A stretch of DNA of 64,000 nt from Paracyclopina nana. Lineage: Eukaryota; Arthropoda; Copepoda; Cyclopoida; Cyclopettidae. The first letter of the stretch is position 1. Each line of letters begins with the position of its first letter. The DNA lies in contig JAGUCH010000002.1 in the NCBI GenBank assembly GCA_019096065.1, positions 15,326,501 through 15,390,500 of the forward strand, read 5' to 3'. The notes beneath the pieces are model-generated. The model was not told the origin of the DNA. It made no database searches and saw only the letters and a list, made by a program, of their open reading frames with translations. This document shows, one piece after another, positions 43,663 to 53,305 of the stretch. Made by a program: the position numbers and the translations under genes.

Positions 43663-46600
43663 ATGGATTCCAAAATGACGGCCAAGCAAATCCGGCAAAA
43701 GTTCATCGACTTTTTTGCCGAAAAACACGAGCATGTCTATGTTCACTCTTCCTCGACCATTCCCCTCGATGATCCTACCTTGCTCTTTGCCAATGCTGGC
43801 ATGAATCAGTTCAAACCGGTGTTTGTTGGCACAGTGGATCCCAACAGTGACATGGCCAAGTGGAAAAGAACTGTCAACTCGCAAAAGTGCATTCGCGCCG
43901 GTGGAAAGCACAATGACTTGGACGATGTGGGTAAGGACGTGTACCACCACACCTTCTTCGAAATGTTGGGTAACTGGTCCTTTGGCGACTACTTCAAAAA
44001 AGAGGTGTGTGAGTGGGCTTGGGATCTTTTGGTGAACGAGCTCAAGATTCCCCACGAGAGGTTGTATGTCACCTACTTTGGCGGGGAGCCTTCTGCTGGC
44101 CTTGAGCCCGACTTGGAATGTAAACAAATCTGGATGAAGCTCGGCGTTCCCGAGGAGAGAATCCTGCCTGGAAACATGAAGGACAACTTTTGGGAGATGG
44201 GTGACACCGGCCCTTGCGGACCGTGCTCAGAAATTCACTATGATCGAATTGGCAACCGCAATGCTGCCCATTTGGTGAACATGGATGATCCGGATGTCCT
44301 CGAGATATGGAACTTGGTGTTCATGCAATTCAACAGAGAGAGCGACCGATCCTTGAAGTCTCTGCCCAACAAGCATATTGATTGTGGCATGGGGTTGGAA
44401 AGACTTGTCTCTGTCATCCAAGGCAAACGATCCAACTACGACACTGACCTCTTCCTTCCTCTGTTCAAAGCTATCGAAAGAGATTCGGGAGTTGGCAGAC
44501 CCTACAAAGGCCTTCTTGGTGATGAAGATGTTGGCAAAGTTGACATGGCTTACAGGGTTATTGCAGATCACATTCGCACCCTCACTGTTGCCTTGTCCGA
44601 CGGTGGGAGGCCTGATAATGTGGGTAGAGGATACGTGCTTCGAAGAATTCTGCGCAGAGGAATTCGATTTGCATCTGAAAATCTGAACGCAAAGCCAGGT
44701 TTCTTCTCTGGCCTCGTTGATACAGTCTGTGAAATTTTAGGCGACTTTTTCCCAGAGCTCAACAAAGATCCTCAGGCTGTCAAGGATGTGATTGATGAAG
44801 AGGAAACCCAGTTCCTCAAAACTCTCAGCAGAGGCAGAAGGCTGTTGGACCGCACCATTGCCAAGATGTCTGCCGGCACCAAAGTTCTGCCCGGAGACAT
44901 CGCCTGGAGGCTCTATGACACCTATGGCTTCCCAGTCGACCTCACCCAACTCATGGCGGAAGAGAGAGGCATGTCGGTGGACGTTGAAGGCTATGAAAAG
45001 GCCAAGGCTGAGGCAGTTCTGGCAAGTCAGGGAAAAACTGCTGGTGCAGAAGACAAGATTGCTCTAGATGTGCACGCCATCAATGAGCTCAAACAAAAGG
45101 GAGTTAAGCCCACAGATGACTTGTTGAAGTACCACTATTCACCTGAGAGTGCTGATCCCAATGCGCCTTACAAGTTTGAGAGCTGCCAGAGCAAAGTGAT
45201 CGGCTTGAGGCGAGACAAGAAATTTGTGGAGGAAGTTAAAAGTGGCGAGGAATGCGGAGTCCTGCTTGAGAAAACATGCTTCTATGCTGAGCAAGGAGGG
45301 CAGACCTTTGACGAGGGCTTCCTGGTCAAGTCTGACGATGACTCGGTTGAGGTTAAAGTTACCAACGTGCAGGTTCGAGGTGGCTACATTCTACACATGG
45401 GTAGGGTTGAGGGTGACTTGAAGGTTGGTGATGTTGTCACCCTGCAAATTGACGAGAAGAGGCGGAAAAACGTCATGAACAATCACACTGGAACGCATAT
45501 TCTCAACTATGCTCTGAGGCAAAGTTTGGGAGCGGAAGCTGATCAGCGGGGATCGTTGGTGGCTCCAGACCGGCTCAGGTTTGACTTTACTGCTGCCAAG
45601 GCAATGACCGTAGCTCAAGTAAAAAAGGCCGAAGATGTGGCCAACGAAATGGTGCAGAAAAACGAGGAGGTTTTCGCCAAAGAAACTCCACTCGCTCTCG
45701 CCAAAGCAATCCAAGGCCTCAGAGCAGTGTTTGATGAAACCTATCCCGATCCTGTGCGAGTGGTGAGCATTGGTGTCCCCGTTGACACTCTTACTGCCGA
45801 TCCCACAGGTCCAGCTGGAGCGAGAACCTCAGTTGAGTTTTGCGGTGGAACTCATCTCAGGAGAGCAGGGCACGTCGGCCCCTTTATCATTGCCTCTGAG
45901 GAAGCCATTGCCAAAGGCATTCGCAGAGTTGTTGCCCTCACTGGTCCTGAGGCAACAAAGGCCATCAACAAGCAAAAGCTTCTGGAGAACGAGCTGTCAA
46001 AGGTGAAAGACAAAATCAACAGTGAAGGCCTTGCGAGGAAAGTGATGGTCAAGCTCATCACAGACTTGGATGAGGACATTTCCGCTGCGCAAATCTCTTA
46101 CTGGAAAAAGGATGAAATGCGAAACGAGTTGAAAGCCCTCAAAAAAGCCATTGACGACAAGGATAAGGAGCGTAAAGCTGCTGTCATGACTGAAGTGGTG
46201 GAGCTCACCAAGTCTATTCTCGTCTCTCATCCAGGCATGCCATTTTTTGTGTACGAATTCAATGCATTTGCGCAAAACAAGGTCTTGGATGGAGCGTTGA
46301 AGCAGGTCAAGGCTCTCAGTCCTTCGACTGCAGCCATGTTCTTCTCGAGTGATGAGGACACGGGCAAAATCCTTTGCTTGGCTCAGGTGCCAAAAGAGCT
46401 GATTTCGGGCAAAGGTCTCAAGGCCAATGAGTGGTGTCAAAGTGTACAAGGCATCATTGGAGGCAAAGGCGGTGGAAAACCAGAGAGTGCTCAAGCGAGT
46501 GGTAGCAAGATTGAAGCCACAAAGGAGGCAATGAAAGCTGCCATCTCTTATGCAGAGGCCAAATTGGGAGTTGTCATGCCAAGCCTTCAAGGTGATGCCA

Positions 46601-47238
46601 ATGCTGCTTCCAACGACGATGCACCAAGTGATTATGTAGTTGTGGAGAAGCCCAAGGCTGATCTCTCAGCTGGTCCCATTCTCAAGTGTAGGCTTGGAAC
46701 TCCTGCTGCTAACATGGTTGCCATTGCTGCTTCCTACGCTGGAATGAGTTTGCAGCTGGAGGAAAGCAGTGGTGACGCTATTCTTGTCTTGGATAGCCAA
46801 ACGAGCATCAAATCTTCATTAGCGATTGCCATGTATATTTGTTCCAAAAAGCAGCCATCGTCGTCGTTGTTGGGCAAGGAGCCCACACAAGTGCTCCAGT
46901 GGGTGTTCTATGCTTTGGGAGATGTGAGTGCTGCTAGCTTGGATTGGGCTCTCAAGGGCCAAGACAAGGCTTGCAAGGAAATTCTTAAGAAGCAAGAGCA
47001 GTATTTGCTGACGAGAACCTTTTTGGCTGGAGAGAGACTTACCCTGGCTGACATTGCCATGGCAGCTTCTCTGCTGCCTGCTTACCAGCACGCCATGGAT
47101 GAAAAGACCAGAAAGTCCTTCCCCAACAGCTTGAGGTGGTTCAACACATGCATCCACCAGTCCAAGTTTCTTACTGTCTTGGGTAATGTCAAGTTGTGCG
47201 ATAAACCCAATGTCGACAAAAAGAAGAGCAAGAATTGA
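43663..47238 (+). CDS. AARS1: Cytosolic alanyl-tRNA synthetase with an added C-terminal GST-like domain (1191 aa, intronless)
   Basis: Charges tRNA-Ala; class II synthetase. Residues 1-about 955 follow the normal family order: catalytic domain ([52 protein letters not shown]), tRNA-recognition region ([20 protein letters not shown]), editing domain with metal ligands H608, H612 (HTGTH), C727 and H731 (CGGTH), and C-Ala domain ([14 protein letters not shown]). After a linker, residues about 1004-1181 form a GST-type domain absent from usual AlaRS (about 968 aa). Its C-half ([40 protein letters not shown]) is very close to eEF1B-gamma. A Lys-rich tail ends the protein. One open frame covers both parts. 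GST-like domains in other synthetases mediate multi-protein assembly; that role here is inference. Convergent with the SUN gene. Confidence 0.95.
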
Positions 47239-47393: not shown

Positions 47394-47399
47394 AATAAA
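47394..47399 (+). terminator. Polyadenylation signal of AlaRS
   Basis: AATAAA 156 nt after the AlaRS stop codon. It is 8 bp from the opposite-strand signal of the SUN gene. Confidence 0.65.
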
Positions 47400-47452: not shown

Positions 47453-50400
47453 CTACAGAGCACCATGGACCCTAAATCTATAAAGGCACGTATACTTGTC
47501 ATTGCCATGATTGTTCAATATGCGAAGTTCCACATACGCAAACGCATAATCTCGAGGATTGGCGACGTTAAAAAACTGCAGGGGCTCGCCCTGGTCGTCA
47601 TAGGAGAACCTGCCCAGGTCTTCTGGATACGGATCTTGTTCTTGGGTTAAGCCCATGACCATAAAGTCTTTGGGCGCAGAGTCGATTTTTCCCGTTGGCG
47701 ATAAGGATTTGGGGATGTGTTCAATGGAGAAACGAGTGGGCTTCATTGGCATTGCCAATTTGACAACCAGAAAACCTTCGTGACCTTTAAAGGCCCAACA
47801 CTCACCAGGCATGATTCCAGGTTGGATAGCTGTTCTAGGATTGGTAGCAGGCCCCCAAGCTGGCAGCGGCAACCACAATGGGACTCCCAGCCAAGTGAGG
47901 GTAGGGAGCTGTTCGGTGTACATTTGAGTGCATCTGGTGGAGACCACTGATCCACCCGCTGTTTCTAGGGCGAAGTCAAAAGCACCAGTTTTATCAGCCC
48001 CGTACACCAAAAGGGCTGACTTGACCATATCTTCAATGTCAATTCGAGAAATGTCATCTTTCTCCAGAACCTTCTGGTGAGTGGCATTTGCCAGGACAGT
48101 CGTCACTTTCGAGTCAATCATGGCAAACACTTCTTGCTTGGACTGCTCCAGTAATGTAAATTTAACGAAATTGATGATTTTGCTCAGTTCAACCTCAAAA
48201 TCCGCTTTGCTCATAAATTGGCTCTTTTGAGCGGCCAAAAATGTTTGAAGAAGTGCATTGGCATCAACACTATTCTCCTGGTTGGCTTTGCAGCAAGCTT
48301 TTACAAGCTCATCCAGATGAAGCACCTCATTCGTGATTTTGCTCAGCTTGTCCTGCAAAGCAACCACATCTTCTCTGCTGTCAAGAGTCTTGAGAGCCTT
48401 CAGGGAGCTGTCCACTTGCTGCATCAGCAAAATTTGCTCTTTATGCAGCAATTGCATACTTTTGGAGTGCCTTGACTCGACATCGTGAACAAAGTCCACC
48501 AGGTTTTGTGTTACGTCGTCACTCAAGTCCAACTTCTTTGACACTTCCTCGAGCCTTGATTCAAGCAGCTGGGTCAGTTGAGCTTTAATGTCATCAGCTT
48601 GACTGAACTTCAGACCGTTTATGTAATGAACAAACTTGGAATTGTCAAGGATTTGCTTGGCCAAATGGTCGTAGTCAATAGGGGGTAAAATCTCCTCTTT
48701 CAATGTAGTAGAGCCTTGCTTGATAGGAACGAGCATCCAACTGATGTATGAAAAAGCACCAAGAAATGCATTGAAAGAGTCCTTGCACATGTTGGTGAGG
48801 GAGAGAGCCAAAACCTCAGTCGTGGATTTAGAGTCGAAAATAATCAGACTTAGGAGCAGCAGTACGGGTATGGATAAAATAAGTATGATGCCAAGGCATG
48901 ACCCGTCTTTGGTCACGCTGATTTTGCCCTCAAATACAGCTTCAGTGGGCTCAAAGGTGAATGAGTTTTCAAAGAGCTCGTGCTGCTGCTGCAAATGTAC
49001 GAAAGACTCGGACGGTATTTCGACATAGCTGACATCTTCCCCTTCTTCCTCCTCCTCCTCAATCTCTTCTTCCTCGTGGATGTCTTCATACTGCAAGTAC
49101 CCAATTATGTGCAAGAGAGAATCAAGCCATCGTTGCATAAAATTGTCTTGCAAATCGGGCTCGTTGTACTCGAAAAAGACTTCATCGTCGTCGTGGTAGT
49201 TGCCAAAATAGCGGAGCAACTTGCTTGACTTTGCCCTTTTTCTCTTGCCCCAAGTTAGCCCCTCAAACTCTGGATCGAGGCCTTGGAGCCTAAGGCTTCT
49301 CCTTCGAATGATCTCCGCTTGATCAAAGTAGCCAAAGTAGGAGAAGATCCTTGACAAGATTGGCTCTCGTTCAGGCCTCAATAATTGCTCAATGGGTTTA
49401 GGCATTTCGTCGAATTCTGGCCTAGGTCTTCTGGCTTTTTTCGAGTCCATCAAGCCTTCGAATTCAGGTGCGAGGCCACGGAGCCTGAGACTTCGACGCA
49501 ATTCCATTTCTTCCTCCTTGAAGTAGCCCAACTTGTTAACGATAGTCGAGAGCGCCCTGGCAATGAGTCCAGGCTTGAAGGCTGCCACCTTGGTCTCAAA
49601 GTCGTCCATGATTTTGGCAATTCGAATCTCGACAGGTTCATCCGGGATGATGAGGGCCGGCTTAGCCGGAATTCTTCTCGTCCTTTTGGTCCTTGCGGGC
49701 AACTCACCAGTAAATTGGACGGGCATGTTTCTAATGCGTGCACTGAACCTTGTTGGAGGTCCACGTGATTTCCTCCAGCGCCTCACTCGCCTCCTTGACA
49801 CCTTTGGCAGTATACTCCACAAGTTTTTAGGGTTGAAAAAAAGCAAAACACTGAACACAAATCCAGCCACTATCTCGGCCACTGACTTGATAGCAGCTCT
49901 CACATCCGGGACATGATTGAGGCGCTTTTTGGCCCATATGTAAACCTCTTTGATGTTGTAAGTGATTCTGTGGACAAAGGTAACCTCATTGACGACCAAT
50001 GGAGGTCCTTTGTGGCTGAACGATGAGACACCGGGCACAGTCTCCGCTTCAGCCACCAAATTTGTGAGAATGGAGGGAATTAAGAGAAGCACTAGTGCCT
50101 TCGGAACGCTGATAGCAACCTTTGTCGACTTTGAGACAGCCCTCTTGACGATTGCTAGGGACCCAGAGATGACGGAAAATGCTTTCTTCATGCTGCCAAC
50201 GTAAAGATCCATGAGGACGGAAATGCTTTTGTCGGGTTTCACACTCCAATTGTAGATGTCATGGTAAAATCTGGTGACTCTTTTGATGTATGTCACTTCT
50301 TCCTCCGCTATTTCTTCCCCATCATTTTCCTTATTCGAATTGACTGGGAAATCATTCCCAGAGTTGGGCACTCGATAAGGAATCAAGTATGGAAGCGTCA

Positions 50401-51310
50401 TCTCAAAAGCCACTAGCAACAGTGATGACACTCGGATTGTTTGTCTTGTAGCAAGTCTAAAAAATGCTTCCAGTTTTCCATGCACATTAAATAGCCACGC
50501 TGCACTCTTCTTATACGACCCGATAAGAAGGATAGAGAGGAGTTGTGTAATGAAGGAAAACTGCCTGCTTGGAAACTTTGTCACTTGAACACTGTCTTCT
50601 TCTTCTTCATCAGATGAAAAGTCCAAGTTGAAGAGGGGAGGCGCAGAAAATGCTACCTCACCATCGTTGTACTCATCAAGTGGTCTTCTTGCCATGTGTG
50701 GCATAGGGATTTCTCTGTCAGGAGTCCATTGCTGGCGGTACGTGGGAGAATCCACATAGGTATATCCAGTTCTGGGAGATCTTTTCCATGCGTCTCCATC
50801 AAAAGCCTGTAGCCTGGGCGAGCCTCCAGTGACTGACCTATTCCAGGGCTCAATTTTGGTAGGGGTTTTGAGAACAATCCTGGACATGGTCACAGTAGTC
50901 TCTTCTGCAAAGCTTTTTGTAACAGTAGTTAGCTTAAGTGTGCCCCTTTGGCTCGTTTCCTCTCTCTTCAAATTAGCAACCCATCCACTTGTCCGTTCTT
51001 CCCTCGCCAATACGTCACTGAGATCTCTTCTTGCAGATGAACTAGGGACACTTCTGGGGGGAACCTCCTCAGGAGCATCCTCTGGGCTGCTGTCGAGCGA
51101 GGCTCGCCAACTTTTACGCCTTCTGCGCTTATGATACGATCTGGCAGGAGATGGACTGATCCTCGAGTGGAACTCAAGGCCGTGGCCTTCGTTGCAAGGC
51201 CCTTGGTGTCGACACACAGATCTTAGCAGGAAACTGGTGCCTCCCGAGGACTTTGAGGCAACAGAGCCGACTGTTGAATGGATATCTTCAAAGTCTGGAT
51301 CGTCGTCCAT
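47453..51310 (-). CDS. SUN (klaroid-like): SUN-domain nuclear envelope protein (1285 aa, intronless)
   Basis: SUN proteins sit in the inner nuclear membrane and bind KASH proteins across the perinuclear space (LINC complex). The SUN domain is at residues about 1112-1284: PGECWAFKGHEGFLVVKL, SIEHIPK, SAPKDFMVMGL, FSYDD, then KYTCLYRFRVHG at the C-terminus. The main transmembrane segment is at about 802-826 (GIILILSIPVLLLLSLIIFD), followed by a helical, coiled-coil-like luminal stretch (about 890-1090). The nucleoplasmic part is unusually long: Ser/Arg-rich start, several weaker hydrophobic stretches, a polyacidic run before the TM, and an internal repeat at about 595-625 and 660-690 (RRSLRLRGLAPEFEGL / RRSLRLQGLDPEFEGL). 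The ATG at 51310 is the first in frame. Upstream non-coding exons cannot be excluded. Confidence 0.92.
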   Translation of the reverse strand: MDDDPDFEDIHSTVGSVASKSSGGTSFLLRSVCRHQGPCNEGHGLEFHSRISPSPARSYHKRRRRKSWRASLDSSPEDAPEEVPPRSVPSSSARRDLSDVLAREERTSGWVANLKREETSQRGTLKLTTVTKSFAEETTVTMSRIVLKTPTKIEPWNRSVTGGSPRLQAFDGDAWKRSPRTGYTYVDSPTYRQQWTPDREIPMPHMARRPLDEYNDGEVAFSAPPLFNLDFSSDEEEEDSVQVTKFPSRQFSFITQLLSILLIGSYKKSAAWLFNVHGKLEAFFRLATRQTIRVSSLLLVAFEMTLPYLIPYRVPNSGNDFPVNSNKENDGEEIAEEEVTYIKRVTRFYHDIYNWSVKPDKSISVLMDLYVGSMKKAFSVISGSLAIVKRAVSKSTKVAISVPKALVLLLIPSILTNLVAEAETVPGVSSFSHKGPPLVVNEVTFVHRITYNIKEVYIWAKKRLNHVPDVRAAIKSVAEIVAGFVFSVLLFFNPKNLWSILPKVSRRRVRRWRKSRGPPTRFSARIRNMPVQFTGELPARTKRTRRIPAKPALIIPDEPVEIRIAKIMDDFETKVAAFKPGLIARALSTIVNKLGYFKEEEMELRRSLRLRGLAPEFEGLMDSKKARRPRPEFDEMPKPIEQLLRPEREPILSRIFSYFGYFDQAEIIRRRSLRLQGLDPEFEGLTWGKRKRAKSSKLLRYFGNYHDDDEVFFEYNEPDLQDNFMQRWLDSLLHIIGYLQYEDIHEEEEIEEEEEEGEDVSYVEIPSESFVHLQQQHELFENSFTFEPTEAVFEGKISVTKDGSCLGIILILSIPVLLLLSLIIFDSKSTTEVLALSLTNMCKDSFNAFLGAFSYISWMLVPIKQGSTTLKEEILPPIDYDHLAKQILDNSKFVHYINGLKFSQADDIKAQLTQLLESRLEEVSKKLDLSDDVTQNLVDFVHDVESRHSKSMQLLHKEQILLMQQVDSSLKALKTLDSREDVVALQDKLSKITNEVLHLDELVKACCKANQENSVDANALLQTFLAAQKSQFMSKADFEVELSKIINFVKFTLLEQSKQEVFAMIDSKVTTVLANATHQKVLEKDDISRIDIEDMVKSALLVYGADKTGAFDFALETAGGSVVSTRCTQMYTEQLPTLTWLGVPLWLPLPAWGPATNPRTAIQPGIMPGECWAFKGHEGFLVVKLAMPMKPTRFSIEHIPKSLSPTGKIDSAPKDFMVMGLTQEQDPYPEDLGRFSYDDQGEPLQFFNVANPRDYAFAYVELRILNNHGNDKYTCLYRFRVHGAL

Positions 51311-53305
51311 GATGACGCCGTTAACACCGTTTATCTGCAGAAACGATTAACGATCATGAGTCATGACAACGCAACTTTTTGAGGCTTTGTTTATCAACTG
51401 ACTTTTAAGAGCACTCTTAAGCTCCTAGCAGAGCTAGAAAACGTGGAAGCTGTGAGTTGTTTGATACAAACAGACGAGATTTTGGACAGGTGCCAAGCCG
51501 AAAACAACGTCAAAATTTGCATGAGTCAAACAAAGCAAAATGATTAACCCTCAAAAATCCTACCTCAAAATGATCCAGGCACTTGAAATCGCATAATGAG
51601 CAAAATTTTCAGTCATCTGATATCCAGGTGTGAGGGTGATATGACTGATATCTGCGCACCTGGAGGCTTCAAGCGGACTTGGGTGCGTCATTCATTCGCA
51701 CACACTCATGCATATTGTTGATGTCTTTGTAGCACCTTATCGAAAAAGGAAGCATTAAATTCACAACTGTTCCTTTTTTGTTAGCGCGCTATGTACACAC
51801 ATGCACCCCGCTGATTTGACGGACTTTTCAAAATCAAAAACTGAGAAGTGAGAAGTAAACAAAGAAGTTTTTAAAAACTTTAAAGAGGGAAGAGGTGTCA
51901 AACCTCAACATATCCTAAATGACCAAGTTGACGGAATGGTTAAGCGGATTGACACTCTTTGTTACAGCATGGCTTGCGATTCTCACGAGTGCTAAAGAGT
52001 TGAAAAGACAAGTGCGAGCAGCTGAAGAAGATCTTACAAGGACAGGAATGAAACTATGACGGTTTCTTTTAAAGCTAAGATGTTAACAAGGCTTGTGTCA
52101 ATACAGTACTACTGTAACCGAAAATACCTGGTCACGATGGTTTAAAAAGCAGTTTTCACGCACATGAGAAATTATCATTTTGCCCCCTATTTTCAGCTTC
52201 TTTTTTTGAGAATTTCTTAGCCATGAAAATAGCTCAAATTAGTGAGAATTGATGGAAAAAGGTTGAAATTCATATTTAAAATGAAAATTTGCCTGAAACA
52301 GTTTCCATGGGGGAAAACATAATAAGCACAGCCAATTTTGCCTACTTTCAGGACTGAGGATTCCATGACTTTTGTTTGACATCGAATGACATTTAGCTAT
52401 TATGGCTTTGATTGTAAGCAGGCCCCAATTAATTATTATTCATCAAAATTGGCTGCGGAAATGTGCAGAATTGGGAGCTCTGAAAGTCATTTTTTATTTT
52501 TAGCTTACAGCCCTATGCAATGTGACCATAAAATTAGAGCGGGTTGTAGCCAGATTTTTCCAAAAAAATAGCCTCGTTTGGCTGTTTCAGAAAAATGACT
52601 CAAAAAAATAGCCACAAATTGGCAAAAAATAGCCTCATTTTTTGGAATTTTCTAGATAATATGATCCATTTTCTGGCAATATTCTGGGTAAAACAATGAT
52701 TTTCATCTTATGTTGGTGGCAGAAGTTTCAAAAATTAAGTCAGCCATTTTTGCACACTTTTAATTTTCCCCCAGCTTTATTGAAGATTTTACTAAGTAAA
52801 AATATCAAATTTTCAGACTATTTAAAAATAGCCACAAATGGCTGTGGCTATTCGGCCTAAATTTCCGTAGCCACACTTGGGCAAAAAATAGCCACTTTGG
52901 CTATAAATAGCCACATCGGGTCACCCTTTGAGAATTTCTCCGACGATTTCGCGATTTTTTTCCCCGTTCGCATTTTGAATGGATTTTGAACCACTGTGCA
53001 AGTGAATTAGTTTCTCACGAAAAAGTAGTGCCATTTGATTTTTTCTAAGGACTTTTTTGCTTTATAAACGAATGGGGATTCGCCTAATTTCTTTTAGTCT
53101 TGAACAGCCTCAATTTGTAACAGACTGTCCCTGGTCCTACTGGCAAAATATTCAACTTGGTGTCTGAAAATCATCTGCAACTTATAATTAATTATTTTGA
53201 AAACTTTTCAATTATTGCAAATGAGGATAAGCGGATGAGAATGAGACATATAAATTATTGAACTTGGAGTTGCTTGCTGTGATCTACATAATTTAGATTA
53301 TATTT
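51311..53305. other. Intergenic, SUN / NALCN
   Basis: No gene supported. The SUN promoter should lie near 51311-51800. The 3' half is mostly the diverged transposon at 52133-52998, followed by the NALCN 3' flank. Confidence 0.4.
52133..52998 (+). mobile_element. Diverged, enlarged copy of the CACAGTGG element
   Basis: Starts CACGATGG at 52133 and ends CCACTGTG at 52998. Its first 300 bp align with 10754-11050 (CAGCTTCTT, GAAAATTTGCC, ACTTTTGTTTG blocks). The middle carries many AAAATAGCC-type short repeats absent from the 457-bp copy. Flanks CTGGT and CAAGT agree at three of five positions, as expected for an old insertion. Confidence 0.55.

Follow-up and report, generated by a model that had tools for sequence, protein, structure and literature searches.

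The 64,000-nucleotide stretch of the Paracyclopina nana genome analysed here (contig JAGUCH010000002.1, positions 15,326,501 to 15,390,500 of the forward strand; hereafter the window) contains, at positions 43663-47238 of its + strand, a single-exon gene for a cytosolic alanyl-tRNA synthetase (AlaRS) that ends in a glutathione S-transferase (GST)-like domain of the eEF1Bγ type. We regard this architecture, and the eEF1Bγ origin of the tail, as very nearly certain. The fusion is real and, by its distribution, old, and appears to be undescribed; it belongs to a known kind, that of synthetases to which a docking GST has been added. As to its function, the reading we favour, at a probability of roughly 0.57, is that the tail is a non-catalytic dock that ties AlaRS to the eEF1B complex.

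Translation of 43663-47238 gives 1191 residues and a stop codon with no internal stop, so that the frame does run unbroken from AlaRS into an extra region, as the original prediction had read it; the five other frames across the tail contain 3 to 13 stops each. Judged by its domains, the cytosolic AlaRS is complete within residues 1-965 and is predicted to aminoacylate tRNA-Ala. Pfam places the three expected domains in the expected order: tRNA-synt_2c (PF01411; aminoacylation and tRNA recognition) at residues 9-600 (43687-45462, 743 bits), the tRNA_SAD editing domain at residues 698-756 (45754-45930) and DHHA1, or C-Ala, at residues 861-964 (46243-46554), where an ordinary AlaRS ends. The motifs HTGTH (residues 608-612; 45484-45498) and CGGTH (residues 727-731) can be read in the sequence, and we take them to be those of the editing site. 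In the alignment, the tail-less AlaRS proteins of a beetle (P0067), a centipede (P0108) and the salmon louse (P0049) stop just after the DHHA1 point, and the window protein continues for 226 residues (966-1191). The extra part exceeds the 'about 180 extra residues' originally predicted; the folded GST within it spans ~1002-1182.

The extension, all of it on the + strand, begins with a linker of ~36 residues (966-1001; 46558-46665) that is predicted to be flexible: in a full-length AlphaFold2 model the predicted local distance difference test score (pLDDT) is below 50 at residues 976-1002, and the GST part is folded. In its catalytic half that model is poor (mean pLDDT 75.4, predicted template modelling score (pTM) 0.44, 37 rows), and we draw on it solely to describe the linker and the folding of the tail. 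Linker identity to the relatives P0002-P0006 ranges from 8 to 58%. There follows the GST-like domain (residues 1002-1182; 46666-47208), composed of an N-subdomain without helix alpha2 and an all-helical C-subdomain, and then a short lysine-rich end (residues 1183-1191; 47209-47235) at the place where, in the alignment, eEF1Bγ has a lysine-rich linker leading to its C-terminal domain. That C-terminal domain, EF1G (PF00647), is absent from the window AlaRS gene by Pfam.

The C-half of the extra region had been called eEF1Bγ/GST-C-like from the start, and the motifs quoted in support are present. GST_C is matched at residues 1100-1166 (38 bits, cut-off 20.7); human eEF1Bγ is the leading sequence match to the tail in PDB (E 4.9e-23); and the window protein scores 96.6 bits with a profile built from 21 rows of standalone eEF1Bγ, no AlaRS row among them. 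The same profile gave no score for any of the four tail-less AlaRS proteins included, and such further GST loci from the genome as were included, scored as open pieces of at least 40 residues, reached at most 19.5 bits, apart from 50.1 bits at a locus joining a GST to an FSH1 domain (GST-FSH1), to which we return. Modelled alone, residues 1002-1191 adopt a GST-like fold with high confidence (pLDDT 92.2, pTM 0.89), their strands and helices in GST order and the helix between strands 2 and 3 missing, and human eEF1Bγ ranks first against this model in both Foldseek and VIA-align. In the structure searches the fungal enzyme PsoE follows closely, being tied in VIA-align to within 1 Z unit, and the ranking covers the listed families only, so that others may be as close. 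That the tail is closer to eEF1Bγ than to other GSTs is clear by sequence and by profile, and is found also with Foldseek. A region search with residues 990-1191 returned 2111 candidates, none of them at E 1e-3; because a search with the whole protein found tailed relatives at once, we put this failure down to the word-sharing limit of the search method.

The two halves of the tail are unequally conserved. Identity to P0002-P0004 is 40-44% in the N half and 55-57% in the C half, and of the positions conserved in standalone eEF1Bγ the N half retains 11/45 and the C half 26/45. The 'GKVPAFE' segment is deleted from the N half, and with helix alpha2 also gone the tail does not possess an intact thioredoxin-like N-subdomain with its glutathione site; from sequence and model, it is unlikely to be a working transferase. 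The same erosion bears on the idea that the GST turns AlaRS into a homodimer through the canonical GST interface, replacing the eukaryotic monomer, which we consider rather improbable: the N-subdomain, which in GSTs contributes to that interface, is the eroded half, and dimerization would leave unexplained why some groups also carry the eEF1Bγ C-terminal domain. In its favour are the classic homodimers in crystals of the human eEF1Bγ GST (PMC10452860) and the description of eukaryotic AlaRS as a monomer (PMC10036535).

The original prediction had spoken of a role 'in this lineage', and that limit can be dropped. A whole-protein search scored 7997 proteins and listed the best 120, in which a species' single entry may stand for just one of its isoforms; GST_C (PF00043) is found in 76 of these AlaRS matches and not in the other 44, and 21 of the 76 bear the EF1G domain (PF00647) as well, which gives some of them the whole of eEF1Bγ. 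The GST_C-bearing entries include insects (two cockroaches, a cricket, a katydid, a locust, a stick insect, leafhoppers, a thrips and a louse, as well as sawflies, wasps, ants and bees) and crustaceans (shrimps, a crayfish, a lobster, a porcelain crab, krill, a mantis shrimp and a barnacle), together with P0021, whose 'Tk' gene name presumably denotes the copepod Tigriopus. A fusion private to this animal is thereby ruled out, and the same join in independent data sets, some with entry names resembling those of transcript assemblies (P0012, P0020), makes an artefact of assembly or gene modelling a negligible prospect; the frame is, moreover, continuous in the genome, in which a search found no second full-length match of this kind. 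Fused proteins are already in public databases, many labelled simply as alanine-tRNA ligase.

Among the named entries lacking GST_C are those of beetles, a moth, a lacewing, a termite, a thrips, a scorpion, a centipede and the salmon louse; five of the entries lacking it are named 'isoform X2' (P0022, P0024, P0033, P0053 and P0076), of which P0053 and P0076 stop just beyond the AlaRS-GST join. This suggests that the tail is optional where an intron sits at the join, and some species may make AlaRS with and without it by choice. In the window gene no intron was seen, and the tail should therefore be obligatory in its full-length mRNAs. Tail-less isoforms are what one might expect if the tail were inert and merely tolerated, the product of read-through into a duplicated eEF1Bγ gene, and the tail has indeed diverged more rapidly than the synthetase part (29-57% against 67-86% identity to P0002-P0006). 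Yet frame and domain have been kept across copepods, decapods and insects, the C half of the window protein still holds its 26 of 45 eEF1Bγ-conserved positions, and an intronless gene would leave little room for skipping the tail; an inert tail seems to us quite improbable.

How the fusion arose can be approached through trees. The first GST tree contained 28 fused GSTs (that of the window and 27 of the 76) and the GST-FSH1 protein, along with a standalone part made up of this animal's eEF1Bγ and 20 of the 120 matches on a second list, from which pieces of fused proteins were omitted. A branch with support 100/100 divides the standalone GSTs from all fused GSTs plus GST-FSH1; counted by themselves, the fused rows require two changes, and a single fused clade is not rejected (p-AU, from the approximately unbiased test, 0.32). 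For a paired comparison of GST and C-terminal domain, trees were made from the same 36 proteins (15 of the 21 EF1G-bearing fused proteins and the same 21 standalone ones). Here too the GSTs split into fused and standalone at 100/100, so that all fused GSTs may descend from one ancient fusion; a single origin is nevertheless not proven, because the alternative of lineage-wise grouping is borderline (p-AU 0.0524). The C-terminal domains behave differently: one 100/100 branch unites copepod-type fused and copepod-type standalone domains against insect-type fused and insect/Artemia standalone domains, and one clade of fused domains is rejected (p-AU 0.0006). Unnamed rows were labelled copepod or insect by their resemblance to named rows and by an accession prefix, which we take to be that of Neocalanus.

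The C-terminal domain would thus have been gained at least twice, or else converted within lineages by the standalone gene. We read the trees as the record of a single old joining of GST to AlaRS, after which the C-terminal domain was captured at least twice; a possible alternative history is that whole eEF1Bγ genes fused separately and that their GSTs then evolved fast. An ancestral fusion of the whole of eEF1Bγ with later loss of its C-terminal part is unsupported by the C-terminal tree, which rejects a single fused clade (p-AU 0.0006), unless the domain was overwritten by gene conversion. A shared exon, in which one eEF1Bγ end is spliced to both proteins, is ruled out in Periplaneta and Anabrus, where the C-terminal domain of the fused form shares 73% and 69% identity, respectively, with that of the standalone form, the two hence being separate copies. 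From the distribution we infer that the join had already taken place in the common ancestor of copepods, malacostracans and insects, or earlier; the pancrustacean common ancestor is over 500 million years old. The GST-FSH1 protein (L011:787-2094, - strand, on contig C5 near 3150494) is a 435-residue open frame with an eEF1Bγ-like GST and an FSH1 serine hydrolase domain; it groups on the fused side of the GST tree on a long branch, and may show the same GST duplicate put to use once more.

The tail is an addition to, and not a replacement for, eEF1Bγ in this animal. The assembly (92 Mb in ten contigs, the window lying on contig C2) contains one EF1G domain that we could find, at C2:15721154, and with it a separate eEF1Bγ gene at ~C2:15720112-15721639, on the same strand as AlaRS and ~346 kb downstream, which in our reading has four exons; the AlaRS tail as sole eEF1Bγ is thereby ruled out. 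In Periplaneta, the contigs of AlaRS and eEF1Bγ (P0027, P0128) are listed at equal size and in Anabrus and Schistocerca they are not, perhaps by chance. Two more distant AlaRS genes (L002, C2 near 12745421; L003, C3 near 6704684) show 49% identity over residues 3-289 and are probably of the mitochondrial type. They are similarly diverged from the window gene; one mitochondrial-type gene would be expected.

The valyl-tRNA synthetase (ValRS) of this genome, taken as the only locus above the valS cut-off (C4:4.996-4.999 Mb), has a frame that opens with a methionine and a lysine-rich stretch. A profile search found no GST in the 5 kb before its start, the positive control protein of this first search being itself part of the profile; the profile of standalone eEF1Bγ rows found nothing at the locus either, and none of the nine GST_C matches in the genome lies within 1 Mb of it. 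These negative results fit the suggestion, made in a review, that the ValRS GST could be limited to deuterostomes (PMC4394549).

In the reading that we favour, the GST-like domain, on its flexible linker, would act as a protein dock and hold AlaRS at the eEF1B nucleotide-exchange complex. It could do so through GST-to-GST pairing with eEF1Bγ, or through contacts with the N-terminal regions of eEF1Bα and eEF1Bβ, which the GST of eEF1Bγ itself binds. Structures exist of the eEF1Bγ N-terminal (GST) domain with the N-terminal domains of eEF1Bα and of eEF1Bβ (PMC7160314, PMC10452860, PMC4394549), and mammalian ValRS uses its GST to bind eEF1Bβ (PMC10452860, PMC4394549). Ala-tRNA could then be handed directly to eEF1A, and AlaRS-GST would correspond in pancrustaceans to what ValRS is in the vertebrate eEF1H complex, the eEF1Bγ C-terminal domain having been added later and separately in the copepod and insect groups, or overwritten by gene conversion. 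That the rest of eEF1Bγ occurs on AlaRS in two groups points in this direction too.

The GST might instead dock AlaRS into a multisynthetase complex, which the original prediction had named beside eEF1, through the GSTs of MetRS, EPRS, AIMP2 or AIMP3. A trypanosome complex of this kind includes AlaRS (PMC12021450), and a candidate partner may exist in this genome: a 94-residue frame with an Arc1p_N_like match (L022:1453-1737, + strand; C2 near 16004479), perhaps part of AIMP3/eEF1E1. We nevertheless think this destination unlikely and rank eEF1B above it, because the tail is eEF1Bγ-derived, with eEF1Bγ nearest to it in both sequence and fold, because the EF1G domain accompanies it on 21 of the 76 fused proteins, in two separate groups, and because no GST was found on ValRS. 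With an eEF1Bγ-derived GST on AlaRS and none seen on ValRS, AlaRS would most simply take the seat of ValRS in the eEF1B complex. A bolder version, which we hold tentatively and at somewhat less than even odds, is a pancrustacean complex of synthetase and elongation factor in which AlaRS, not ValRS, has been joined to the eEF1Bγ machinery since the common ancestor and has captured the C-terminal domain at least twice independently, rebuilding the whole of eEF1Bγ, such that AlaRS is a structural subunit of arthropod eEF1B.

Around the gene, a candidate AATAAA polyadenylation signal can be read at 47394-47399 (+), 156 bases past the stop codon, and a convergent, long and intronless gene at 47453-51346 (-) has one open frame of ~1290 residues with a Sad1/UNC domain at its end; its stop lies ~215 bases from that of AlaRS.

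Set against known systems, the window protein contains all the Pfam domains of the prototype AlaRS (catalytic, tRNA-recognition, editing and C-Ala) within residues 1-965, and departs from it in what follows. AlaRS has been presented as a synthetase without any gained domain (PMC10036535), and Table 2 of AARS Online (2024) names CysRS, GluRS-E, MetRS and ValRS as bearing a GST, AlaRS not being named there (PMC11580382); surveys of malaria parasites, trypanosomatids and fungi likewise describe GSTs on other synthetases (PMC2813244, PMC4828885, PMC6366043, PMC8319005, PMC4301749). In the passages of the open-licence full-text literature that our search covered, most subscription papers lying outside it, we found no description of a GST or eEF1Bγ on AlaRS, in agreement with the original prediction that none is well described. 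A large animal group contradicts the printed view of AlaRS as never having gained a domain. The multisynthetase MetRS and GluRS/EPRS, and CysRS, also bear an appended GST-like domain; the best match of the window tail is instead eEF1Bγ, from which the tail differs in being joined to AlaRS, in its shorter N-subdomain and in the missing C-terminal domain. As in GST-tethered synthetases, synthetase and GST-like domain are covalently joined, and the domain would hold the enzyme in a complex. The closest parallel is vertebrate ValRS of the eEF1H complex, likewise a synthetase whose GST-like domain is considered unlikely to have enzymatic activity (PMC10452860, PMC4394549). It differs in that its GST is N-terminal, whereas in the window protein the synthetase is AlaRS and the GST is C-terminal and plainly eEF1Bγ-derived, with none found on this genome's ValRS. 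If the docking is true, it would provide another example, the second, of a synthetase linked to the exchange complex of the elongation factor. Channelling of aminoacyl-tRNA could then be tested in cockroaches, wasps and shrimp, and the group would offer a natural experiment, AlaRS possibly having here the role that belongs to ValRS in vertebrates.
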